This document shows positions 1-24,473 of a stretch of 26,059 bases of DNA, in pieces (the stretch's first letter is position 1; every line of letters begins with the position of its first letter). The notes beneath the pieces are model-generated. The model had not been told where the DNA came from and did not search any database. It saw nothing but the letters and a program-made list of their open reading frames with translations. Source of the stretch: a virus; the IMG/VR virus record IMGVR_UViG_3300040801_003555, positions 1 through 26,059 of that record; one strand, written 5' to 3'. The position numbers were made by a program, and so were the translations under genes.

Positions 1-929
1 TCTCGGCCAACGCTCCGAATGCTGGCCATTCAGCCTACGACAATGAGGGCCGTCTGTTCATCCACAAAGTCCTGCCGAGCGGCGTGTTTAACTGCCCCAA
101 GTATATCATGGTAGGGCCTGGCGCGGTGTTCGACCCTGCTCGTCTGGAAATGGAAGTGAGCGACTTGATGGAAGCCGGACACATCGTCAAAGATTACACC
201 GAGGTCCTAGTTCACAACAACGCGGTCGTGCTTACCGACAAGATGCGCGACATGGAAGCGATGTCGGCAGTAACCGGTATTGCTTCTACTGCGCAAGGCT
301 CCGCAGCCGCGATGGTAGCCAAGATCATGCGAGACAAGGACAATTCCCCCATCGCCAGGGATTGCTACAGGCCCAATCCTAATTTGCCTATTCGTCTGGC
401 TACCAACAACTATTGGCAGTCAATAATGTTATACGCCAACCGTGTTCTGGCCGAAGGCGCTCAGGGATACAGCCTCGGGATCAACCAAGATTTTTACCCG
501 TACGGCACCAGCCGAGACTGCGGTCCGGCCCGGTTTCTGTCGGACATGGCAATCCCGGTTGGAAGGCTGCGACGTGTAATCGGTGTCGCCCGTACCTTCC
601 CGATCCGAGTCGGCAACACCGACAAGGGCAATAGCGGAGGTTGGTACGCGGACCAGAGAGAATTGACTTGGGACGAACTGGGAGTGACCCCGGAGAAGAC
701 AACCGTTACCGGGCGGATTCGCCGCGTGGCGTCGTTCTCAACCATACAGTTCGAGGAAGCTTTGGTCGAAATGTCCATCAACGAAGTTTTCTTGAACTTC
801 ATGAATTACGTTACCGAAAACGAGCAAAAACCAATCGTAAACGACCTGTCCGAGATCGCCGGTAGGCACGGCGCTGCCATTCGATGGCTCGGTTTCGGTC
901 CCAAAACCACAGACGTAAAGGCTATCTGA
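1..929 (+). CDS. purZ: PurZ-type adenylosuccinate synthetase homologue, 5' end missing
   Basis: The reading frame is open from base 3 to the TGA at 927-929, so the gene starts upstream of the window; the GTG at 84 is internal. The visible part carries adenylosuccinate synthetase signatures in order: NAGHS and LPSG near the left edge, GPGAVFDP, STAQGSAAA, EGAQGYSLGI, YPYGTSRD, RVGN, and TTVTGRIRR near the C-terminus. The N-terminal P-loop-like WGDEGKG segment is outside the window. In the PurZ branch of this family the enzyme joins aspartate to dGMP, giving the precursor of 2-aminoadenine (Z) deoxynucleotide. Assignment to PurZ rather than cellular PurA rests on the compact C-terminal half (about 310 residues visible, no long insertions) and on the neighbours, datZ 1 bp downstream and a mazZ-like gene. 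The residue that distinguishes PurZ from PurA in the active site lies upstream and cannot be checked here. Confidence 0.88.
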   Translation, partial: SANAPNAGHSAYDNEGRLFIHKVLPSGVFNCPKYIMVGPGAVFDPARLEMEVSDLMEAGHIVKDYTEVLVHNNAVVLTDKMRDMEAMSAVTGIASTAQGSAAAMVAKIMRDKDNSPIARDCYRPNPNLPIRLATNNYWQSIMLYANRVLAEGAQGYSLGINQDFYPYGTSRDCGPARFLSDMAIPVGRLRRVIGVARTFPIRVGNTDKGNSGGWYADQRELTWDELGVTPEKTTVTGRIRRVASFSTIQFEEALVEMSINEVFLNFMNYVTENEQKPIVNDLSEIAGRHGAAIRWLGFGPKTTDVKAI

Positions 930-930
930 C

Positions 931-1440
931 ATGAATGTACAGGATCAAGTAAGAGCGGTCGACGTGAAACGTTGGACCACCGTTCGCACCACCAGAAGCC
1001 AGTCGGTGGCCGAGCATTCGCATGTCGTGGCGCTGATTTCCATGAGGATGTGTCAACTCCTAGGGAGACCGGACATCCTTCCGTTGTGTGCTGCCTATGC
1101 CTGTATTCACGACCTGGACGAAGTAATCACCGGAGATATACCGTCCCCGACCAAGCGCAGATTCGATGAGACCACGCAAAAGACGTTGGGGTTGTATTCC
1201 GACGCGCTGGCCGTCACGTACGGGATTGATGTCCCGGAAGTAAAGAGCCTGGTCAAAGTGGCCGAGCGACTGGAAGAGGCGTGGTTCATAAACGAACACG
1301 GGGCCAGCATCCACGCATATCAGGTCCAGGGCAACATCATCGACAAACTGTACGAGGACTTCGACAGCCAAGAATCGCCCCTTTGGTTGGCAGCCAAGAA
1401 GATTTGGGACGATTTGGTGGACGGCAAACGCACCTGGTAG
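931..1440 (+). CDS. datZ: DatZ-like HD-domain dATP triphosphohydrolase
   Basis: This 169-residue protein starts at an ATG one base after the purZ stop, so it is probably translationally coupled. It is a small YfbR-type HD phosphohydrolase: SVAEHSHVVA (His29), the HD pair at 60-61 followed by LDEVITGDIPSPTKR, and an amphipathic segment VKVAERLEEAW at about 108-118. DatZ enzymes of Z-phages strip triphosphate from dATP, removing the competitor of dZTP during genome synthesis. Length matches the DatZ family (about 170-180 residues). The final metal ligand, usually Asp in an AD-x-LE context, appears here as Glu112 (AERLE). Glutamate can bind metal, so the enzyme may still be active. A generic 5'-deoxynucleotidase is the alternative; the position between purZ and mazZ favours DatZ. 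Confidence 0.85.
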   Translation: MNVQDQVRAVDVKRWTTVRTTRSQSVAEHSHVVALISMRMCQLLGRPDILPLCAAYACIHDLDEVITGDIPSPTKRRFDETTQKTLGLYSDALAVTYGIDVPEVKSLVKVAERLEEAWFINEHGASIHAYQVQGNIIDKLYEDFDSQESPLWLAAKKIWDDLVDGKRTW

Positions 1441-1446
1441 ACCCCG

Positions 1447-1866
1447 GTGAGTGAAGCCAAACTACGGGACTATTTGATTTCGAACATGGATTTTCGAGGT
1501 CACTTCAGTCCCATAGAAGCTCATTCCAGCCAACCGGGAGTGCCTGATTATGCTTACACTATTGAAGGCATCAATGGTTGGCTGGAACTCAAATGGGGAA
1601 CTCCGAAGAAGCCGCCCGAGCTGCGGCTGATGCAGCAAGTGTGGATGCGCAGGAACGTCAAACACGGAGGAAACGCTTTGATTTTCTGCGGAATTCAGAC
1701 AGAAGATGCTCGGACCTTCGGCCTTATTCACGCCAATAGATACAAACAAATATATCTTACCAAGGGGTGTGGCCCGTGGCTGAAGGCAATGAACGTGTCG
1801 TGGCCCGGAAAGGTGGATTGGGCCGAGTTCCTGCAAATTCTTAAACAACCAGAATCGTTGAGGTGA
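1447..1866 (+). CDS. VRR-NUC-like PD-(D/E)XK nuclease
   Basis: This 139-residue protein starts at a GTG (1447), 6 bp after datZ. The core motif is clear: GVPD at 31-34 followed by WLELKW at 45-50, giving Asp34...Glu47-x-Lys49, then Q-x-x-W (QQVW) around 64-67 and a glycine before a beta-strand (GNALIFCG). This is the arrangement of VRR-NUC and related Holliday-junction-type phage nucleases. Such proteins cut branched, flapped or foreign DNA using a divalent metal. Here the gene lies between datZ and mazZ in a nucleotide-metabolism operon, so it may recycle host DNA into nucleotides, act in recombination, or discriminate A-DNA from Z-DNA; the sequence does not decide among these. The fold assignment is fairly secure and the substrate is unknown. 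Confidence 0.72.
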   Translation: MSEAKLRDYLISNMDFRGHFSPIEAHSSQPGVPDYAYTIEGINGWLELKWGTPKKPPELRLMQQVWMRRNVKHGGNALIFCGIQTEDARTFGLIHANRYKQIYLTKGCGPWLKAMNVSWPGKVDWAEFLQILKQPESLR

Positions 1867-1870
1867 TTAT

Positions 1871-2290
1871 ATGGCCGGATTCAAGTATGACTCAGGAAAA
1901 ACCCGCTGGGAACTGTTGCCGATGGAAACCGTCGAGGAACTGGCAAAGGTCATGACCTACGGGGCCACCAAATACCCAGACGACAACTGGAAGAAGTTGG
2001 AGAATGCCGAGGACAGGTATTTCGCTGCGGCCATGCGTCATCTTTCAAAGCACAGAGCCGGGGAATTGGTGGATGAAGACTCGGGATTGCTGCACGCGGC
2101 CCATGCTGCATGCTGTTTGCTGATGGTACTGTGGTTCGCCACGCACCCGAAGGCACAGTGTGTGCCGCCCATGCAGCCACCCAGGCCGGAATTTCAACCA
2201 GAGAGGTTCCGAGTTCCGCCGCCACCGCCAATACCTCCTCTCCGGGTAGGGCAGTACCCGGCTCCGGTCGAGGACAGTTGCGACGATTAG
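1871..2290 (+). CDS. mazZ: MazZ-like dATP/dGTP diphosphohydrolase
   Basis: This 139-residue protein has a strong GAGGTGA ribosome-binding site 5 nt before its ATG. The N-terminal 95 residues match the dATP/dGTP diphosphohydrolase N-terminal domain (formerly DUF5664): KYDSGKTRWELLP at the start, VEELAKVMTYGATKYPDDNW, a central RYFAAAMRHLSKH helix, and DEDSGLLHAAHAACCLLML-like helices with the acidic and His residues of all-alpha NTP pyrophosphohydrolases. In Z-phages this class converts dGTP to dGMP, the substrate of PurZ. The last ~40 residues form an unusual proline-rich tail (PPMQPPRPEF... then PPPPPIPPL) that looks disordered and may mediate protein contacts. It is the final gene of the plus-strand cassette and ends just before the convergent late operon. 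The name mazZ is by context and family; nucleotide preference is inferred. Confidence 0.75.
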   Translation: MAGFKYDSGKTRWELLPMETVEELAKVMTYGATKYPDDNWKKLENAEDRYFAAAMRHLSKHRAGELVDEDSGLLHAAHAACCLLMVLWFATHPKAQCVPPMQPPRPEFQPERFRVPPPPPIPPLRVGQYPAPVEDSCDD

Positions 2291-2298
2291 TGTTTAAT

Positions 2299-2344
2299 GG
2301 CCCGGACGCGTTCCCCCGCTCACGGAAGGACGCTCGTCCGGGCC
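2299..2344. terminator. Inverted repeat at convergent junction, possible bidirectional terminator
   Basis: A perfect 10-bp inverted repeat, GGCCCGGACG at 2299-2308 and CGTCCGGGCC at 2335-2344, encloses a 26-nt loop in the gap between the end of the mazZ-like gene (2290) and the end of the last minus-strand gene (2370). The placement between converging transcripts fits a two-way terminator. Neither side has a run of T after the stem, so it is not a canonical intrinsic terminator. A smaller competing hairpin (GGAC/GTCC, around 2328-2339) overlaps the right arm. Confidence 0.5.
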
Positions 2345-2369
2345 GACACCCGCAGGAAAAGACCCTAAA

Positions 2370-10748: not shown

Positions 10749-11321
10749 TTATCTCGTGGATGCGGACACTGAGTAATTCATGTCCCACCCCTGGTTTATC
10801 AAGTCATCGACTCGACGCTGGTATTCCATCGACCACAACGCAACTTGATCGGCTTTTCTCAGGTATACCGAGGCTTCCTTCAACATGCCGTATATATACA
10901 CGTCGGGGTGGTTCATGACCACCCAATTGTCGGTAACCTGATCGCTGGGAACCAACAGTTTACCTTGATATTCGACGACGAAATTGGATATCTCGACAGG
11001 AGTAGGAAACAGTTCGGCCTGAAGACCGTGCAGAATATACCCGGATGCTCCGGAATCGGCCCTTGCCGGAGATAATTGGGTCAACGCTTGAGTTCCAAAC
11101 CTGATGACGGTCAAAGCCCGTAAATCTTCCGGCATCTGCAGGAACGTGTCGGAACCGGGGTCAAACGTTACGGACGCCATCTGGTTGTTGAGAGGATGGT
11201 CCGTAAGCTGCCGATTCAGGTCGGACGTAACCATGGCCGCCCAACTGTCCAGCGAAGCGTCCGGCGTGTTGGGACGGTTCAGATAATCACGAACAGAATC
11301 TTTAATCTCGTTCCATTGCAT
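10749..11321 (-). CDS. Head-tail adaptor protein, SU10/P22 gp4-like, 190 aa
   Basis: The N-terminus MQWNEIKDSVRDYLNR and the segment SWAAMVTSDLNRQL are typical of phage adaptors, which start with a helix bundle that docks onto the portal. A beta-rich middle (LQMPEDLRALTVIRFG, ISNFVVEYQGKL) follows, then the characteristic helix NHPDVYIYGMLKEASVYLRKADQ with A-L-W-S-M-E-Y-Q-R-R-V-D-D-L. Twelve copies are expected between portal and nozzle. It starts 20 bp inside the Cys/His protein gene and is followed 2 bp later by the nozzle gene. Confidence 0.78.
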   Translation of the reverse strand: MQWNEIKDSVRDYLNRPNTPDASLDSWAAMVTSDLNRQLTDHPLNNQMASVTFDPGSDTFLQMPEDLRALTVIRFGTQALTQLSPARADSGASGYILHGLQAELFPTPVEISNFVVEYQGKLLVPSDQVTDNWVVMNHPDVYIYGMLKEASVYLRKADQVALWSMEYQRRVDDLINQGWDMNYSVSASTR

Positions 11322-14797: not shown

Positions 14798-16606
14798 TTA
14801 AGCGACGAAAGCCGGGCGAGCGCCGATGAACGGGCTCGCGTTCACGCGAGCGCTGGTCAGGTTAAACGCGAACACGCCAGCGTCGGCCGCGCTGGCCCAA
14901 TAGCCGCCGCGGCGCGGCAGACGCTCTCCGGACTCGGTCCAGTAAAATCGATCGCTGTTGAGCCCGCTCGGGGCGATCGGAAACAGCCCGAGACGCTTGC
15001 AGAGCGCCAGCGCATCCGCGCCGACGGGGGTCGCCCCCGGATTGCTCATCGTCTCGACCGGCGCGCCGGTCGCCGCGACCAGGCTGTAATCGGCCGTGCC
15101 GGACCCGGCGTAGCGCACCACACCGGAGGACCCCGGTGCCACCAACGCGCCGGTCGCCCCGTCGATCGCACGCCAAGCCACTGAGCCGACAGCATCATCC
15201 GTCGCGCTCAGCGCCATGTCGTTGTCGGCAATTACGTTGATCTCGCCATCGACGATCCGCAGGCCGGGTGCCCACTCCCAGACGTTTCCGCAGAGATCCG
15301 CAATACCGGACGGCGTGCGGTCGTGCCGCCATGCGCTCGGCCCGGAACCGGTCAGCGTGCGTTCCCCGCCGGAGCCGGAGCCCCCGATCGTGATCGCGCG
15401 ACCATTTTCCTGGATACCGTACTCGCTCGTATCGTCGCTGGATCGACCGTAATCGGTATTGCCGCGCGGCATCCAGCCACCTTTCCAGCAGCGCAAACTG
15501 ATGGCCGCCCATTCGGCGTTGGTCATCACGTGCCAGCCCGCGCCGTTGGCGCGGGCCAGGGCAACGGCGCCATCGTGATTGATCGTGTGCGCAACCGCGC
15601 GCCCCGGCTGGCTGATCAGCTCGCCGTTGACGGATGCGCCGCAGAATTGTCCGATCAGGATTTCCGACTTCTCCACGCCGCCGACGACAAACGCCGGATG
15701 GGTGCCGGTGCCGAGGCTGGCGTCGATCTCTTCGACATTAAATTTTGGCAGCACGTACATCATGCACGGCTGCCCCTTGGCGGTGTAGAGCACCGTGTTG
15801 CGCCCCTGGCTTTGCGCTTCGACCTGATTTCTCAAGGCATCAGGTGTGTAGATCGTGAGCAGAGTCGGGGTGTGGAGTGCGTTGAGATAAAGGGGCGATT
15901 GCCAAAACTGGGAGGCATTCCTTGCAGCCGCAACCAAGTCGGATGCAGGAGTATCCGATTTAAGTATGTGTTGCTCGTTGGCATTCAGCTCGTAAGCACC
16001 GCTGGCAATCGACGGGATCAACGACAGATGGACGTTCTTTTCGTGGTCCACGCGTAATTGATACGCGTTGGTCAACCCGCTCGGCAACGTTGCTGCCACA
16101 TAAGTTCCGGCTGCTGCAGAAATCGGTAACCGTGCCTCGGAAAGATCGACGTGTGGTTGCGCAGCCGTCGTCGTTTGAACTGCATTCGCACTTCCTTCCC
16201 CGAGCGCATACATCCGCGATATCGTTACCGCGCTTGCACCTGCCCAGGTTAATACTGCGTCGGGCGACAAGAACCCGCGATTGTCGAACCCGAAATCTTC
16301 CTCGTCACTGTCCGATGTTCTGCGTAGCGTTACCCCGGTTTCTCCGCTGTCGCGAGAAATGTCGCGCATGCTCCAAGCGTGAAGGAGGTCTGTCGGATCT
16401 GTTAGGTGCTCCAGTATGCCGCCGATATCCAAACTCGACAAGTCAAATCCGGCACCAATAGGATAAATAGTTTTATCGAATCCGATATCGCAAAACGGAC
16501 CGGGCAAGTCTGATTGCGGAATATAGCTCAAAGCCGCTTCAACGGCCCCGGCGTCGCTCATGTCGATGCCGGTAGGTAAAACGATGAGGCCGTTGTTCGC
16601 CGCCAT
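14798..16606 (-). CDS. 602-aa display protein with C-terminal C-type-lectin/FGE fold, DGR-target-like
   Basis: The ATG at 16606 directly follows the previous stop (TAAATG). Residues 1-130 look beta-rich (LamG-like at a guess) and 130-290 form a helical/beta linker. From about 290 there is a formylglycine-generating-enzyme-like C-type-lectin fold: GRAVAHTINHDGAVALARANG, GWHVMTNAEWAAISL, RTPSGIADLCGNVWEW (CGNVWEW at 439-445), then FYWTESG and RGGYWASAADAGVFAFNL near the end, closing IGARPAF. This is the standard layout of proteins diversified by retroelements (Mtd/TvpA class), which bind receptors through the final ~40 residues. The C-terminal half is much more GC-rich than the N-terminal half. 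It lies between head and lysis genes. No reverse transcriptase is in the window. A fixed, non-DGR adhesin is the alternative. Confidence 0.7.
   Translation of the reverse strand: MAANNGLIVLPTGIDMSDAGAVEAALSYIPQSDLPGPFCDIGFDKTIYPIGAGFDLSSLDIGGILEHLTDPTDLLHAWSMRDISRDSGETGVTLRRTSDSDEEDFGFDNRGFLSPDAVLTWAGASAVTISRMYALGEGSANAVQTTTAAQPHVDLSEARLPISAAAGTYVAATLPSGLTNAYQLRVDHEKNVHLSLIPSIASGAYELNANEQHILKSDTPASDLVAAARNASQFWQSPLYLNALHTPTLLTIYTPDALRNQVEAQSQGRNTVLYTAKGQPCMMYVLPKFNVEEIDASLGTGTHPAFVVGGVEKSEILIGQFCGASVNGELISQPGRAVAHTINHDGAVALARANGAGWHVMTNAEWAAISLRCWKGGWMPRGNTDYGRSSDDTSEYGIQENGRAITIGGSGSGGERTLTGSGPSAWRHDRTPSGIADLCGNVWEWAPGLRIVDGEINVIADNDMALSATDDAVGSVAWRAIDGATGALVAPGSSGVVRYAGSGTADYSLVAATGAPVETMSNPGATPVGADALALCKRLGLFPIAPSGLNSDRFYWTESGERLPRRGGYWASAADAGVFAFNLTSARVNASPFIGARPAFVA
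14810..14945 (-). other. Candidate variable repeat (VR) of a diversity-generating retroelement
   Basis: This segment encodes residues from about 553 to 598 of the display protein. At positions where related variable proteins usually have Asn (in the pattern GG-N-W-N-N-x-x-N-A-G-V-F-A-x-N-L-N-N-A-R), the codons here are TAT, GCC, AGC, GAC, ACC and AGC. All end in C or T, as expected if AAC/AAT template codons were changed only at their adenines. No matching template repeat was found in the window. Confidence 0.4.
14834..14851 (-). repeat. Perfect 7-bp hairpin inside the candidate variable repeat
   Basis: GCTCGCG (14834-14840) and CGCGAGC (14845-14851) flank a 4-nt loop near the 3' end of the display-protein gene. 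Short GC-rich hairpins or cruciforms near the 3' end of variable repeats are known to matter in retroelement homing; here it lies within the coding region. It could also be incidental in GC-rich DNA. Confidence 0.55.
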
Positions 16607-17297: not shown

Positions 17298-18347
17298 TTA
17301 CCCTGCAGTGACCGCCAAGGCCGGGTTGATGCCCATGATTACGAACGAAGATTTTTCGTTCTTGGCGATGTTGCAGTAGTCCACCGACATCAGCCGCTTT
17401 TCCGCAAGACCGGTGCGGGCCAACGGCTTGGTCATGATTTTCTGCAGATAGCCGATCGCCCAGTACTCCGGGTCGAACCCGTAAACGTTACAATTGGCCA
17501 CCACGTTGGTGTAGGTCAACTGAGACCGGTTCGGGCACAGCTCCAGGGTGTGGAAATCGGTGATGATGGTGGTCACCGAGCCGATTGCCGTGACACCTTG
17601 ACGTTCGTACATGCCGTCCTTGACGCTTGACGGAGTGACGTTCGACTGGATGGTAGCGATACGGGCCGAGGAGGAGAACAGGTACTCGGACAGCTTGCGG
17701 ATCAGAGCCGGGACCGACATCAGGATCGACGGCATGCCGCCAGCCGTGTAGGCGAGCTCCGAACCGTTACGAACGTCCATTTCGGTCATCGCCCGAGACG
17801 CGCTCGGGGTAGGAGCCGAGAAGATACCGTTCAAGAAACCGCCAGCGGTGCCGTTGATGATGTTCGTTTCGAACATCGCTCCACAACCGGCGGTTTTACC
17901 GGCGACGGCATCGCCGTTGTCTTCGACCGAAGCTTGGTTGCTCAGGAAAGTGGCTTCCATCCGCTTCTTCAGCTCCTTCTGGCGCTCCATCAACTGGTAC
18001 ACCAGCTCATCGGACCGACCGATGGTGTCGACGTTACGAGCACGGTCGGAGACCTGAACGATCTTGGTGGATTCCTGGTGGTGGTTGCCGATACGGCGCC
18101 CGGTAGTGGAATCGTTGCCGGTAACGTCGGCACCGTCAACCACTGCGTTGGCCAACTGCACGGCTTCGAGGGAATCCTGCGTCCAGGACCGATATTGGTT
18201 CTTAGACTTGGGAGCCTCACCGGCCATGTCCTGGTACGGCAAATCCACCGGGTCCAGGCTGTAAATGGCGTCCATCACGTCTTCACGGATGAGACCTTGA
18301 TAAGGACGACCCTTGAGATCGGCAGCGTCCAAATTGGTTGTGGCCAT
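17298..18347 (-). CDS. Major capsid protein, SU10-like (DUF5309 type), 349 aa
   Basis: AGAGGT lies about 6 nt before the ATG, the best ribosome-binding site in the operon, fitting the most abundant virion protein. The sequence has the SU10/DUF5309 capsid pattern: GLIREDVMDAIYSLDPVDLP then PYQDMAG, an N-Y-R-S-W-T-Q-D-S-L segment, NHHQESTKIVQVSDRAR, a long helix with ERQKELKKRMEATFLS, and a C-terminal NVYGFDPEYWAIGYLQKI and SVDYCNIAKNEKSSFVI. The size (349) suits an HK97-fold shell protein. It follows the scaffold gene by 3 bp. Hundreds of copies would form the capsid. Confidence 0.88.
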   Translation of the reverse strand: MATTNLDAADLKGRPYQGLIREDVMDAIYSLDPVDLPYQDMAGEAPKSKNQYRSWTQDSLEAVQLANAVVDGADVTGNDSTTGRRIGNHHQESTKIVQVSDRARNVDTIGRSDELVYQLMERQKELKKRMEATFLSNQASVEDNGDAVAGKTAGCGAMFETNIINGTAGGFLNGIFSAPTPSASRAMTEMDVRNGSELAYTAGGMPSILMSVPALIRKLSEYLFSSSARIATIQSNVTPSSVKDGMYERQGVTAIGSVTTIITDFHTLELCPNRSQLTYTNVVANCNVYGFDPEYWAIGYLQKIMTKPLARTGLAEKRLMSVDYCNIAKNEKSSFVIMGINPALAVTAG

Positions 18348-19655: not shown

Positions 19656-20942
19656 TTATTTCTTGGTCTTGTAGGTAACGTTTCTCATAGTCTCGAAAAA
19701 TTCCTGACGAGCCCTGTCGACGGCCCTGGCATTTTTTCTCATTTCGGGGCTGGCCCTAGGGTAGTTTTCTATTCCCATTTCCATGATTTCTTCCAACGAT
19801 TTAATTTTGCCGCCAGACCCCATAGGAGAAGTTGAAAATTTGATCTGAGCATTCTCGAAATTCAAAGCAGCTTCAGATATTTTAGATAAATCTTCGGGAC
19901 TATATGTCTTTTTTAATCCCTCCGCCACATCTGCATATGGAAGCCCGGCAACCCCAGGGCGTGTGTTTAAGTATTTCATTCCTTTAGAAAATGCATATGC
20001 CAACTCGTCTACAAAATTGTTAAAAGTGGCTCTGTTGCCGCGAACCGACTCCATGGCCGACACGATGTTCTTGGGTGTTGGCTGACTACTGCCAGTCTTG
20101 AGTCCTTTTATGATGTTTTCCAGATTATCATATATTTCCGCGTATTTTTGAAGTTCATTTACGCTTTCGGTCGTATTTGGCTCCATATGCATAGTCGGAA
20201 TTGCTCCGCCTGACGCTACGTCGCGTTTTGCAAACCACTCAGATTCATTGTTTCCTAAAGCGGGTTTTTTATATACGTCGGTAAGGCCGGACGGCTGTGT
20301 TTGATCATAATATAAGTCCGGGGGCAAGTTCCAAACCTCTTCTGGTCTTATATTGGCCTTTACTCTATTTACGTTTGATGGATTTCTCGGATTCCCGCTA
20401 AACTGCCGCAACGACCACAAGGGATCTTCTGAAACTGAAGTTCCGGGCAATTGTGATTCTCCCGACGCCCCTTTTGAGAACCCGTTTCTCAGTATATCTT
20501 CTTCTGAAGATATACGCCCGTGGGCGAATGATCCTCGGCCGTGATACAACGGCGGTATGCGCTTGACGCCTCTGAGACTACCTGCAACCGCGCCAGCCAC
20601 CGGTAACGGCCCGTCAGCAACATCAGCTACCAACATCAACGGATCCAATATTTCCGGCTTCAGTCGCCAGTTCATCGGACTCTCGGAGCTGAAGTCAGCA
20701 TAAACGTTCGGCTCCCCTTCGGCCGAGCGACGAGCAGCATTCAACGTTGGCTCCAACATCCAATTGACGAGCGGGCCAGCTACCGACTGCAACCCCGTCT
20801 CCCGAGACTGCGCCCAGTCCGCCAGAGGACGTAAATTGTTGTAGGCAGCAATACCGAAACGCTCCTGCCAAGGCAACTTAGCGGAACGCATTTCACCGGT
20901 AACTAGAGAGTTGTAGTAATCTTCAAGCGTCGGCTTTGGCAT
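19656..20942 (-). CDS. Putative virion-associated ADP-ribosyltransferase-like protein, 428 aa
   Basis: It overlaps the portal gene by 20 bp. Residues 1-130 are helical with a moderately hydrophobic stretch (about 98-122, DPLMLVADVADGPLPVAGAV). From 130 the pattern suggests an ADP-ribosyltransferase of the R-S-E type: PPLYHGRGSF (Arg136), ILRNGFSKG, LPGTSVSEDP (Ser-Thr-Ser-like at 167-171), a strand RVKANI, and NNESEW with E-S-E at 233-235. After 255 it is helical. If active, it would use NAD+ to modify a host protein, possibly after injection with the DNA, as known for some phage head-borne ARTs. From about residue 134 the DNA turns AT-rich, suggesting a domain gained by transfer. The motif match is by eye; a non-enzymatic portal-associated protein is the alternative. 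Confidence 0.45.
   Translation of the reverse strand: MPKPTLEDYYNSLVTGEMRSAKLPWQERFGIAAYNNLRPLADWAQSRETGLQSVAGPLVNWMLEPTLNAARRSAEGEPNVYADFSSESPMNWRLKPEILDPLMLVADVADGPLPVAGAVAGSLRGVKRIPPLYHGRGSFAHGRISSEEDILRNGFSKGASGESQLPGTSVSEDPLWSLRQFSGNPRNPSNVNRVKANIRPEEVWNLPPDLYYDQTQPSGLTDVYKKPALGNNESEWFAKRDVASGGAIPTMHMEPNTTESVNELQKYAEIYDNLENIIKGLKTGSSQPTPKNIVSAMESVRGNRATFNNFVDELAYAFSKGMKYLNTRPGVAGLPYADVAEGLKKTYSPEDLSKISEAALNFENAQIKFSTSPMGSGGKIKSLEEIMEMGIENYPRASPEMRKNARAVDRARQEFFETMRNVTYKTKK
20492..20515. repeat. Perfect 10-bp inverted repeat inside the ART-like gene
   Basis: GTATATCTTC (20492-20501) and GAAGATATAC (20506-20515) flank the 4-nt loop TTCT. It lies within coding sequence, about 35-50 bp inside the point where the gene changes from GC-rich to AT-rich, and could form a hairpin in RNA of either strand. 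Its role is unknown; it could mark an old recombination junction. Confidence 0.7.
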
Positions 20943-23022
20943 TTGACTGACCCATACTGTCGGGAACCGGCTCGTTGTCGTGAACAGCGTTCATTTCGAT
21001 CAACTTGATGCGCTGCTGGATGACGCCGAGGGCGTAATCCAAGTTGGCCTTCATCGACTCGGTTTCGCTCTTGGCGTCCGATTGGTATGCTGCGGCCTGA
21101 GCCTTGATGCCTTCCAACTGCAACATGAGCTGGCGCTGAGCCTCGGCTTCTTGTTGTGCCTGTTGTGCTTGCTGCTGAGCTTGCTGCTGCTTGGACTGGG
21201 CTGCCAACTTGGACTCTTCGCTGAGCGGATTTACCCAGTATCTCTCCGGGTAGTTTACGCCCATGAGCCGGGAATAGTCCACCCTGGCGTTGTACATCCC
21301 GTTCTGGTTTACCAAGATACCGTCAAGTCCGGCCTGAGCGTCTGCGGTCTGTTGAGCGATGACGGAAGCGATGTTTTGGGACTGGCGCAACCGGGTGCCC
21401 ATCGACAACCCGACCGATACCTCGGTGGCATTTCGCTCAGCCCACAGCTCCGGAACCCCTTGAAGCCAAGTGCCCTCGATCCGCGCCGAGATTACCCCGC
21501 GCCAATGCTTCTTGAGGATGCGGTGCAACTTCAAGTATATTTCGGATACCAACGTTTCCGCCAAATTCTTGGCGAACATGGCCCCGTTCTGTTCGATGGC
21601 CGACATGATACGCTCGAGTCCGTGAGCGCTGTCCACGCCGATTTCCTGGCTCTGCGGAGCGGTATCGATGGCACCACCGCCAGACTCACGGCGAGCTGAA
21701 TCGAGCTTGTCGATCAACATGTAACTTTCGTGCGGAACCTTAACGTCCTGCAGCACGAACACGGCACTGGGATCCTTGACCCTGACATAACCACCACGGT
21801 TGGACGTGCGCAAATCGTCCATGTTGGCCATGCGCTCGACTACACCGATACGCTGGTTTAGATTTCGCCAGCCGGCATCCAATATCTGCCTCATCAGGTC
21901 TGATTTGTAGTCTTGAATCTTGTATAACCGGTCGTACAACGAAACACCACTGAACCCTCTGGCCGGGAACATTGCCACCCCGTGGGCAAAGGGTTGTTCC
22001 GGCCACGGCTCTTCCAACAGCAATTTGTCGGTGCCTTTGTCGCCGCCAGCGGTTATGACACGCCTCAGCTCTGCAATACCGTCACCGTCATAATCAACTC
22101 GATAATAACTTTCCGCAATAGTGATTGGTCTGGTGCTTTTGTGAGCGGTATCGAGGTCCAGGTCGTCATGCCCGGTTGTCTCCAAAGTTCCGCTCGACGC
22201 TTCCTTCAACCCGTCAACCATTTCGCGGTCGAAACCAACAGCCACCAAATCGGAAGCCGGGACGTTTCTCCTGTGAACCACCAGACGAGCGGTATCCAAG
22301 GTGATGTCTTTGTGGTCCGGATTTACGAATACTTCTTCTCTCGGAACCCAATCGACTTTTGGCTTACCGGCGTTGCCGACACGTTTTACGTCGACAGTAA
22401 AGGTTCCGTCTTCGTTTTCGAACCCGCCAGAAATATCTGGTATCAAAGGGAGTATATCGGGAGTGACATCGCGCAGCCTCTCCCCGTATACGCACGACGA
22501 CGGGTCCCAATACACTTTGGCCAGCGCATCTCGACACAACAGAGCATCCTTGAACGCTCTGTTCAAGACTGTATAGCCTTTGTTGGATGTCATGAACACG
22601 TGGTTTACGATTTTGGTTTCCGAGGAAGCCTGTTCGTCGTCGCCAGGTCCGTTCGGAACGAATACCACGGGCTGGTCCCCGTAGAACCCAGGGAGTATTT
22701 CGGCTAACGTTGCTTCGACTGCGTTTCCGACTTCGTTGGAAACATAGTCGTTGAAACTCCCGGCGTCATCGGCTTCGTCATCGGACGATTGTGCAGCCGG
22801 TAGCTTGCCGTCGTAGTAATCAATGGGAGTCTGGATGATTTCGAAGTCGAAGTCGTTGATGGCGTTGGTGACTTCTTCACGAATCGCCGCCAATAATTCG
22901 TCTTCAGTCATTCCCTCGGGCTCTTCCTCTTCCATTGGATACTGACCCTCCACCATCTGGTTACGGGCGATTTCCTGCTCCAGCAATTCCAATTCTTCTT
23001 GACTCTGACCGTTTATCATCAT
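20923..23022 (-). CDS. Portal protein, P22-type, 699 aa
   Basis: The start at 23022 overlaps the terL stop (ATGA). An acidic N-terminus (MEEEEPEGMTEDELL) precedes a helix region, then IDYYDGKLP and a typical podovirus portal core: SSETKIVNHVFMTSNKGYTVLNRAFKDALLCRDALAKVYWD, a beta-rich wing with VDWVPREEVFVNPDHKDI and TARLVVHRRNV, and the stem/crown part RLYKIQDYKSDLMRQILD, NLNQRIGVVERMANMDDLRTSNRGG and AIEQNGAMFAKNLAETLV. Residues about 590-680 form a long Gln/Ala coiled coil, probably the barrel. Twelve copies form the DNA entry and exit ring. Length 699 fits the P22-type class. Confidence 0.88.
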   Translation of the reverse strand: MMINGQSQEELELLEQEIARNQMVEGQYPMEEEEPEGMTEDELLAAIREEVTNAINDFDFEIIQTPIDYYDGKLPAAQSSDDEADDAGSFNDYVSNEVGNAVEATLAEILPGFYGDQPVVFVPNGPGDDEQASSETKIVNHVFMTSNKGYTVLNRAFKDALLCRDALAKVYWDPSSCVYGERLRDVTPDILPLIPDISGGFENEDGTFTVDVKRVGNAGKPKVDWVPREEVFVNPDHKDITLDTARLVVHRRNVPASDLVAVGFDREMVDGLKEASSGTLETTGHDDLDLDTAHKSTRPITIAESYYRVDYDGDGIAELRRVITAGGDKGTDKLLLEEPWPEQPFAHGVAMFPARGFSGVSLYDRLYKIQDYKSDLMRQILDAGWRNLNQRIGVVERMANMDDLRTSNRGGYVRVKDPSAVFVLQDVKVPHESYMLIDKLDSARRESGGGAIDTAPQSQEIGVDSAHGLERIMSAIEQNGAMFAKNLAETLVSEIYLKLHRILKKHWRGVISARIEGTWLQGVPELWAERNATEVSVGLSMGTRLRQSQNIASVIAQQTADAQAGLDGILVNQNGMYNARVDYSRLMGVNYPERYWVNPLSEESKLAAQSKQQQAQQQAQQAQQEAEAQRQLMLQLEGIKAQAAAYQSDAKSETESMKANLDYALGVIQQRIKLIEMNAVHDNEPVPDSMGQSNAKADA

Positions 23023-24473
23023 CGTCTCGCTCTGGTGATTCGTCGCTTGGCCACGTTTACCGGAACGTTCCAGTCGGTATACTGACCATATCCGTCTCCG
23101 CCCATCAACACGTCCCCATCACCTATGCCGAGGCTTAAATACTGGAGCGCTTCACAGATGTGGGAATAGATATTTTTGGACGGAACATCGTGGAATTTTT
23201 CGTCGCCGGATACTTTTACTCGACGATATTGATAGTGACCTGCCATACCTTTCTTCAACACCTTACATCGGGGGTGTATCAGAATGGACGGTTCCGACGT
23301 CATTGTTAACTTGCGCAGCCTGGAACCCACGGCATCGCGCCTCAATCCGAAATCGTTACTGGGGGCAGCAATTATGTCAAACTTGTTGGCTTGCAACATC
23401 ATGAACGGCGTTTTCTTGTCGGCTTGGCTACCTTGAGCCCCTGCCGGGTCTCCCCATCCGTGGCCCCATCGCAACCAAGGGTAATCGGTTGCTCTTCGTT
23501 CCTTGGCTAATTCGGCCAACTCTTCGGCCGAGAAGTTTTCGGTAACTATCTCGTCAAACACCAACAATTGCCCGTTCAATTCCTGTGCCATAACCATGGC
23601 CGGAGTCAACCCGAAGTCGACCCCGTAAATGATCGGCAGGTCCGGCAACACTTCGAACTTTCTGACGTGGGTGTCTACGTTGAATTCTTCATATACCGGC
23701 TTGCCATCAGCCGACGACCCGAACATGTTTGCTAGGTTTACTTTAATCCACTCTTCGGACTTGCCGTGGATCAACTTCTCGTAATATCCTTCCGGCAAGT
23801 TTTGGGTGTTTTCGGCTCGCGACGACGGCACCCAAATCCCATCAATCTTCTCGACCGCCCCTGGTTGTACGAAAAACTTCCAATTCTTCGGGGCGTCGCC
23901 CTCGTGTATGGCATACCAGTGGTCGTCGTCGGGGGCATTCGTGTCACCGACAATCCGCCCTTCATGCGAACAGTCGACGCCAGCCAAAGCGCGCGAAGGG
24001 TAACGACCAAGACGTGCATCCAGCATCGATAAAACCGACTTAGGTAATTCTTTTGTTTCATTCAACCACCCTATGGTTCCCTGAGCGCCGCGCAGTTTAC
24101 GAACATGTTCCTCTCGGTCCAAGGCTATGAACAACACGTCGCATTCAACGGTCGTGCCGTCACCCATGGCGTACGAAATCAACTGAGTAGGTGGGTGTGC
24201 CATCTTGATGGGGGCTATGTCACGCGTCACTGCCGCCCAATCTCGAATGGTCGTCGTCAACAGGTCAGGATAGGTGTTTCTGATGATGAACAGTCGCGTC
24301 GGCCGAATGCCCTTGTCGTTGGGCTCTTGCTCCTGCATCATACAAAGCAGTTTCAGGATGGTGGTCTGGGTCTTGGCACTACCAAGGGGTCCTCGAATAA
24401 ACGACACCGTTGACCTATCCAGGAAATAGTCTTCGAGGATGTCTGACGGCGGCTCAAAGCGGATCTTTATCAC
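23019..24473 (-). CDS. terL: Large terminase subunit (packaging ATPase/nuclease), 484 aa
   Basis: It overlaps terS by 20 bp. The ATPase domain shows a Walker A variant G-P-L-G-S-A-K-T (28-35), an adenine-binding or coupling R-N-T-Y (65-68) and a Walker B region ending GWLNETKE with catalytic Glu139. The nuclease domain shows YGVDFG (Asp286), a WGDPAG motif (Asp342) and the closing helix HICEALQYL (His438/Glu441), the RNase-H-like set of terminases. It cuts concatemeric DNA and pumps it into the procapsid through the portal. Because the template may be Z-DNA, its ends may be cut on a modified substrate. Packaging type (cos or headful) cannot be read here. Confidence 0.92.
   Translation of the reverse strand: MIKIRFEPPSDILEDYFLDRSTVSFIRGPLGSAKTQTTILKLLCMMQEQEPNDKGIRPTRLFIIRNTYPDLLTTTIRDWAAVTRDIAPIKMAHPPTQLISYAMGDGTTVECDVLFIALDREEHVRKLRGAQGTIGWLNETKELPKSVLSMLDARLGRYPSRALAGVDCSHEGRIVGDTNAPDDDHWYAIHEGDAPKNWKFFVQPGAVEKIDGIWVPSSRAENTQNLPEGYYEKLIHGKSEEWIKVNLANMFGSSADGKPVYEEFNVDTHVRKFEVLPDLPIIYGVDFGLTPAMVMAQELNGQLLVFDEIVTENFSAEELAELAKERRATDYPWLRWGHGWGDPAGAQGSQADKKTPFMMLQANKFDIIAAPSNDFGLRRDAVGSRLRKLTMTSEPSILIHPRCKVLKKGMAGHYQYRRVKVSGDEKFHDVPSKNIYSHICEALQYLSLGIGDGDVLMGGDGYGQYTDWNVPVNVAKRRITRARR

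Follow-up and report, generated by a model that had tools for sequence, protein, structure and literature searches.

The viral contig IMGVR_UViG_3300040801_003555, one whole IMG/VR record of 26,059 bases referred to here as the window, carries at its left end a cassette for Z (2-aminoadenine) genome biosynthesis in which the usual place of MazZ is empty and a stand-alone DUF5664 gene is present. It is a true Z-cassette, new in combination and not in kind: a phiVC8-type PurZ, an odd DatZ, the empty MazZ slot, the lone DUF5664 and, on the same contig, an SU10-type head. DUF5664 probably replaces MazZ here (a probability of about 0.6), because the DUF5664 of Arthrobacter phage Wayne turns dGTP and dATP into monophosphates (PMC12884076). 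This reading rests on the activity of that homologue and on a pattern across relatives with few independent changes.

The Z-genome cassette and its empty MazZ slot

The window starts inside the purZ gene, and four frames on one strand are followed by an inverted repeat:

3..929, + strand: purZ, 308 residues, 5′ end cut by the contig start; about 34 N-terminal residues are absent in the alignment with phiVC8
931..1440, + strand: datZ homologue of the HD-domain dATP triphosphohydrolase family; in S-2L DatZ numbering, I22 is replaced by Thr and D119 by Glu
1447..1866, + strand: nuclease of the Holliday-resolvase / VRR-NUC fold, in the same place as the ZP6 nuclease gene
1871..2290, + strand: stand-alone DUF5664 (PF18909) with a proline-rich tail, proposed MazZ replacement
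2298..2345, no strand: inverted repeat with a 10-bp outer stem (by eye), at the convergent junction of the cassette and the structural arm

Successive frames are separated by 1, 6 and 4 bp, and no cassette frame is broken within the contig. The first-pass annotation had described three Z-phage enzymes here, PurZ, DatZ and a MazZ-type hydrolase, with gaps of 1-6 bp. Profile matches bear out the partial PurZ and the DatZ homologue, and the measured gaps agree; the nuclease inside the cassette had gone unmentioned. The label of MazZ-type hydrolase was rejected, because the 1871-2290 product matches PF18909 (dGTP_diPhyd_N / DUF5664; 3.3e-32, 110.8 bits, cut-off 27) and no MazZ model. PF18909 was the sole Pfam family found in this product at 0.01. 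The MazZ-1, MazZ-2 and Pfam MazG models gave no match in the whole contig, and only 1 bp separates purZ from datZ, where MazZ usually lies. For ten complete phages, PMC8342488 describes MazZ as always located between these two genes.

The 3-929 product was matched by the NCBIfam model amino_Aden_PurZ at 9.5e-75 and 251.5 bits, as against 95.8 bits for the best PurA model; with its N-terminus missing, it scores below the whole-protein cut-off of 300 bits. The PHROG '2-aminooxy adenylosuccinate synthetase' also matched (2.7e-62). Matches were found in 199 of 50,697 phage records with a best E value of 2e-76, and are thus not due to chance; the best of them belong to the Vibrio VP2/VP5/phiVC8 group (45-46% identity). 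A single-sequence search of viral contigs gave no relative, while an alignment query did find relatives. Among solved structures, phiVC8 PurZ (6fm1) scored 260 bits and S-2L PurZ (7odx) 165, followed by 7vf6, which we take to be PurZ0 (79), and 2d7u, presumably archaeal (57). Cellular PurA was dropped as an identity for this gene, since the PurA scores among both models and structures were far below those of PurZ.

A PurZ tree of 84 rows was built by a quick method, without cellular PurA; 10 near-duplicate loci were omitted and close pairs such as L055/L057 were kept (L numbers denote loci). The window falls in a 53-row clade with phiVC8 and ZP6 (Shimodaira-Hasegawa-like approximate likelihood ratio test, SH-aLRT, 99), with no settled position inside it, and apart from Wayne and Archimedes (support 100). 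FLNF-x-NY, the motif carried by the window, recurs in nearly all PurZ rows; in Wayne and Archimedes the motif includes an Asp. In PurA structures this site has a role in ATP or GTP use, and the motif may report which of the two is used. Identity as PurZ0 was dropped on account of the separate position and the different motif. Wayne is taken here as PurZ0 following PMC12884076, and Archimedes by its neighbour gene. That paper is not consistent on the phosphate donors, whose order in section 24 is the reverse of that in the introduction; the introduction is followed here. Ser stands at the place of the PurA catalytic Asp13 in 79 of 80 related PurZ frames (near-duplicates included), the remaining one being cut off; the equivalent residue of the window lies before the contig start.

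The datZ product was matched by the PHROG dATP triphosphohydrolase (1.3e-31) and by Pfam YfbR-like (4.4e-13), and by tblastn in 62 phage records, nearly all of them in genera also among the PurZ matches. The presence of a Z-genome cassette in the window is thus well supported by the clade in which PurZ lies, the adjoining DatZ homologue and the conserved gene order.

Among the closest known systems are those of phiVC8 and ZP6, to which the window PurZ is 45% and 43% identical and DatZ 43% and 31%; the nuclease is 31% identical to that of ZP6. Their clusters read purZ, MazZ-2, datZ, nuclease, and the window has the same order and convergent layout without MazZ. Behind the nuclease they have a DUF6378 protein where the window has DUF5664, and their head proteins are different. 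The order purZ, datZ, nuclease and last gene, converging on the structural genes, is shared with Bm1 as well, except for MazZ. As in phiVC8 and BUCT555, the Z-cluster closes an early arm that runs towards the structural one.

Two other phages carry a DUF5664 domain in a comparable setting. That of Wayne (DUF5664-1) is stand-alone, lies in a PurZ-family cluster like that of the window and is 32-35% identical; unlike the window, Wayne has PurZ0 and DutZ/DmtZ (PMC12884076), and no DatZ was found in its locus. In Acinetobacter phage SH-Ab 15497 (DUF5664-2) the domain is, as in the window, part of a PurZ and DatZ cluster, but it forms a fusion with a MazZ-1/DUF550 domain, encoded between purZ and datZ, whereas the window gene stands alone behind the nuclease. 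According to PMC12884076, dATP/dGTP pyrophosphohydrolase activity is published for both proteins, and the Wayne enzyme converts dATP, dUTP and dGTP to dNMPs with a kcat tenfold higher on dATP than on dGTP. There, PurZ phages mostly combine DatZ with MazZ-2 or with DUF550, in many cases fused to DUF5664, and a lone DUF5664 goes with PurZ0; the passages considered, sections 4, 24, 25 and 26 among them, describe no PurZ cluster in which a lone DUF5664 occurs without MazZ. PMC12038007 reports a PurA (ORF52) from Vibrio phage J26 and, as ORF8, a 'MazZ domain of dATP/dGTP diphosphohydrolase'.

On the preferred reading, the window holds the last part of a Z-genome module of the phiVC8 type, from an uncultured phage whose head is of the SU10 type. 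PurZ would use dGMP and aspartate to form the dZMP precursor, and host enzymes would complete dZTP, as published for relatives. The DatZ homologue would remove dATP, and the lone DUF5664 would most likely take the MazZ step from dGTP to dGMP, feeding PurZ. The virion DNA is predicted to contain Z.

MazZ and DUF5664 in related clusters

The best 80 of 152 PurZ-bearing IMG/VR loci were scanned with PurZ, DatZ, MazZ-1, MazZ-2, DUF5664, nuclease and PolA profiles. Together, 44 of these loci, five reference phages and the window made up 50 nuclease-type clusters. MazZ alone was found in 34 of them, MazZ with a lone DUF5664 in six (L036, L038, L042, L052, L069, L079) and DUF5664 alone in ten (the window, L039, L040, L043, L048, L049, L051, L064, L071, L080); none had neither. 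Among the ten, L039 and L043 are close kin. A second scan gave three further distinct contigs with both genes (L134, L136 and L139 = L140). DatZ was undetected in three of the 50 clusters (L041, L060, L082).

The nine MazZ-less relatives (with L043/L044 counted once) have the purZ-datZ-nuclease-DUF5664 arrangement of the window; their DUF5664s are divergent from that of the window, and none of the nine gave an SU10 portal match. In all ten MazZ-less clusters the datZ frame starts at or before the purZ stop +2. PF18909 is present in 10/10 of their whole records, and matches to MazZ-1, MazZ-2 and Pfam MazG in 0/10. MazZ models made from the reference phages alone likewise matched none of the ten, and the same models detected controls outside their training (MazZ-1 10/10, MazZ-2 9/9); Pfam MazG is a weak probe, which matched 6 of 24 records.

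On the PurZ tree, L052 with both genes lies beside L040, L048, L064 and L071, which have DUF5664 only (support 83), and L036 and L038, also with both genes, belong to the same larger set (support 97). This placement is as expected if DUF5664 was gained first and MazZ was lost later. On the tree, MazZ loss needs 4 changes and DUF5664 needs 6. On the preferred reading, another enzyme family has taken the place of MazZ in several branches within this clade, probably by way of phages that had both genes.

The place behind the nuclease in the 50 clusters is held by a lone DUF5664 in 16, by a DUF6378-type gene in 14 and by neither in 20; no cluster has both. The PF19905 (DUF6378) gene is found there in phiVC8, ZP6, BUCT555 and K300, sub-threshold in phiVC8 and BUCT555. 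Further examples are L034:21350-21646, L031:21133-21405, L030:16210-16572 and L033:20519-20854, among others. This gene is possibly another nucleotide hydrolase.

The record is a partial genome, of which some 10-15 kb is probably absent, judging from relatives of 36-41 kb. The absent part would include the purZ start and the place held by the polymerase/primase genes in phiVC8 and ZP6. No PolA was found in the contig by the profile scan; its block is expected upstream, outside the contig. PolA was found upstream in eight of the nine MazZ-less relatives, and the ninth, L048, is cut off. The window could thus come from an ordinary Z-phage in which MazZ or another dGTP pyrophosphohydrolase is encoded in the unsequenced part and DUF5664 is accessory, as the contig starts inside purZ without the expected polymerase block and as MazZ and a lone DUF5664 coexist in the six clusters and three contigs given above. 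Against this, MazZ of nuclease-type clusters, wherever seen, starts at most about 45 bp from the purZ stop, if it does not overlap it. Moreover, five of the ten MazZ-less records measure 36-38.5 kb and have no detectable MazZ anywhere; in the shorter ones its absence covers the sequenced part only. We regard an ordinary Z-phage as rather unlikely.

Origin of DUF5664 and the state of DatZ

Several further results, like the chance that MazZ lies in the missing 10-15 kb, weigh against a replacement of MazZ by DUF5664. Only two independent pairs on well-supported branches (four on all branches) differ in MazZ. DUF5664 follows the MazZ difference in 1.1 of the two on average, goes the opposite way in none and shows no difference in 0.9. 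A phylogenetic sign test in which MazZ loss was set against DUF5664 was not significant, the pairs being too few to reach significance. In a wider set of 73 clusters, 18 are without MazZ, and six of these have no DUF5664 nearby (L081, L084, L086, L087, L088, L105). A structure model of the DUF5664 product has a predicted local distance difference test score (pLDDT) of 80.5 and is weak except in residues 11-100; PDB searches with it found no convincing relative. RS21-C6, which we take to be a MazG-like pyrophosphohydrolase, appeared at Z 3.4, within noise, and a shared MazG fold is therefore not claimed. Profile comparison with solved structures was of no help either (best E 0.063).

Several of the clusters lacking both MazZ and DUF5664 carry another small gene beside purZ. 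The content of the slot thus varies, and only for the nuclease-type clade, within the present sample, does a lack of MazZ go with DUF5664 as a rule. Just after purZ, L084, L086 and L105 have small proteins with a common EER-FQ start, MazG-like by eye. Between purZ and datZ lie a dUTPase-like frame in L087 (2096-2527) and a nucleotide-kinase-like one in L088 (4191-4778), both labelled by eye. In the MazZ-less L106, L108 and L199 it is a lone DUF5664 that stands between purZ and datZ, joined in L108 by one more small frame; on the PurZ tree, L106 and L108 are near the fused SH-Ab type.

The descent of the window DUF5664 also counts on this side. In a tree of 33 DUF5664 domains of about 95 residues each, it groups (98/98) with eight domains of non-Z phages and with Wayne, L069, L107 and L110, the other MazZ-less lone domains being on the opposite side. 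The eight rows were picked among the window's own BLAST hits, a choice that favours their grouping with it. PurA or PurZ was found in the whole records of 0/8 of these phages, and the control BUCT555 was found. The approximately unbiased test did not reject a union of the window domain with the other lone domains or with the SH-Ab type (p 0.068, 0.053, 0.226), the first two values being those for union with the other MazZ-less lone domains. The window DUF5664 may not be orthologous to the other lone DUF5664s, nor sister to that of Wayne. For the lone domains of L064 and L080, too, the best matches lie in other phages, GP100 and PT11-V22 for instance. Separate recruitment of DUF5664 into Z-clusters is suggested.

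DUF5664 is common in phages at large, with 353 records matched. It could accordingly be a generic phage dNTP hydrolase unrelated to Z, with the host pool supplying enough dGMP for PurZ, and the grouping with eight phages that all lack PurA and PurZ would suit such a role. The lone copies behind the nuclease in 16 of the 50 clusters, their presence in every MazZ-less nuclease-type cluster and the action of the Wayne homologue on dATP and dGTP (PMC12884076) argue for a link with Z, and we hold a generic role to be distinctly unlikely.

The DatZ homologue was compared in a 73-row alignment at 14 positions, which are S-2L positions discussed in PMC8065100 or are conserved across the alignment. The window agrees with S-2L DatZ at 12 of the 14, and R19, W20, H34, H66, D67, K81 and K116 are all present. 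At D119 only the window has Glu, the other 72 rows having Asp. Position I22 is I, L, M or V in 69 of 73 rows, Thr in the window and the MazZ-less L040, and Asn in L085 (with MazZ) and L105 (without). In S-2L DatZ, D119 is a metal ligand, I22 keeps out 2-amino purines and the I22A mutant is reported to have relaxed purine specificity (PMC8065100). These unusual residues make the dATP removal step by the window DatZ uncertain, a further point against the scheme. The Z trait might even be on its way out, with an impaired DatZ and DNA that is only partly substituted; the agreement at the other 12 positions and the intact cassette frames inside the contig speak otherwise, and such a loss appears very unlikely.

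The same residues may be seen together with the origin of DUF5664. One DUF5664 could do both jobs, dGTP to dGMP in place of MazZ and dATP removal in place of DatZ, as in PurZ0 phages; DatZ would thus be drifting, and the window lineage would have acquired its DUF5664 from a non-Z phage in an event of its own, separate from those of the other MazZ-less lineages but into the same operon slot. That all of this holds jointly is a tentative idea and rather unlikely. The replacement of MazZ by DUF5664 as such remains our preferred reading.

Nuclease, structural arm and meaning of the combination

The nuclease model (1447-1866) has a pLDDT of 93.2, and its 13 best VIA-align rows are RecU, Hjc and VRR-NUC nucleases (Z 9.0-11.3 over 89-133 residues). 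The PD...ExK residues are invariant across 18 nuclease sequences. By tblastn at 1e-6, homologues were found in 42 of the 80 PurZ loci; in the phages collection, the ZP6 nuclease was the only one matched (2 records).

From 2370 on, the assigned genes are on the - strand, several of them structural or lytic. This arm comprises a tail lysozyme, a GH108 endolysin, an SU10-type adaptor, the major head protein, a scaffold, the SU10 portal and the terminase. Genes on the + strand resume at the right end, beyond the terminase; one of them has a weak HNH match (sub-threshold in Pfam, PHROG 4.3e-7). The head and packaging genes are:

10749..11321, - strand: SU10-type adaptor protein (SU10_adaptor)
17298..18347, - strand: major head protein (phrog_1328)
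20923..23022, - strand: portal of the SU10_portal family (Pfam SU10_portal, 2e-107)
23019..24473, - strand: large terminase (weak PHROG match, 0.0027; 69-70% identical to L003 and L004)

An SU10-like capsid and a P22-type portal had been proposed for this phage. The adaptor and portal matches uphold the SU10-like head, and the portal itself belongs to Pfam SU10_portal, so that SU10-type is a better label for it than P22-type. A placement against Z-phage lineages such as phiVC8/VP2 relatives had also been advised; the similarity to phiVC8 applies to the cassette and does not extend to the virion proteins: tblastn of the structural genes against phiVC8, ZP6, K300 and BUCT555 gave no match. Among 44 other Z-phage records (many incomplete, a few near-duplicates), only Ochrobactrum phage vB_OspP_OH (Wolominvirus) had an SU10 portal over the cut-off and a match to the major head protein; BUCT555 gave a sub-threshold portal trace of 14.8 bits. 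Phage OH shares the SU10-family portal, a related head protein (25-30%) and the GH108 endolysin (37%) with the window, and differs in that its PurZ is far off on the tree, MazZ-2 is present and a helicase gene lies behind datZ. The nearest head genes are those of L003 and L004 (portal and head protein 57%), contigs too short to show a Z-cluster.

This distribution could also arise if the contig were a chimaera, with an SU10-like head joined to the end of a Z-phage: among the phiVC8-type Z-phages tested, no record has an SU10 portal over the cut-off or such a head protein, and the two arms meet near an intergenic stretch. We consider this highly improbable, as the layout, with a converging cassette and + strand genes beyond the terminase, matches phiVC8 and BUCT555, the tail and endolysin show weak similarity to Z-phage loci L085 and L038, phage OH carries the same portal family and GC is similar along the whole contig.

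The inverted repeat at the junction is a possible two-way terminator. The RNA of 2287-2360 folds at -36.4 kcal/mol (a single fold, without shuffled control), and a terminator scan did not report the repeat. Beyond it, a small gene of 84 residues (2370-2624, - strand) has a plausible ribosome-binding site by eye and no Pfam or PHROG match. The 602-residue protein encoded at 14798-16606 (- strand; phrog_2889) strongly matches PDB 5vf4, an 'Uncharacterized protein' (6.5e-87); its C-terminus resembles what we take to be the target variable region of a diversity-generating retroelement, and neither a reverse transcriptase nor a template repeat was found in the contig. No terminal repeat was listed at the contig ends. 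At the DNA level, a search of the phages collection with 24,900 of the 26,059 window bases gave no match. A profile search of genome contigs gave two PurZ loci. L126 (JALVAL010000103.1) is a Z-phage contig in a gammaproteobacterial metagenome-assembled genome (MAG), with 36,591 bases as L076, a possible hint of the host. L127 (CANDFN010000073.1), a contig of a Clostridia MAG, has a PurZ-like gene 34% identical to that of the window, and DatZ was unmatched in its 4,957 bases.

The window departs from both published accounts, of MazZ as always lying between datZ and purZ (PMC8342488) and of the stand-alone DUF5664 as accompanying PurZ0 (PMC12884076), as far as the parts of these papers considered go. 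If true, the recurrence of PurZ clusters that have a lone DUF5664 and no MazZ would add a case of functional convergence in the building of phage Z-DNA, and would suggest that PurZ requires some dGTP pyrophosphohydrolase and not one particular kind. Phages with both MazZ and DUF5664 look like the intermediate. Small DUF5664 enzymes are candidates for dGMP supply when laboratory bacteria make Z-DNA. With its SU10-type head and phiVC8-type cassette, the phage represents a further Z-phage lineage, in keeping with module transfer between head types.

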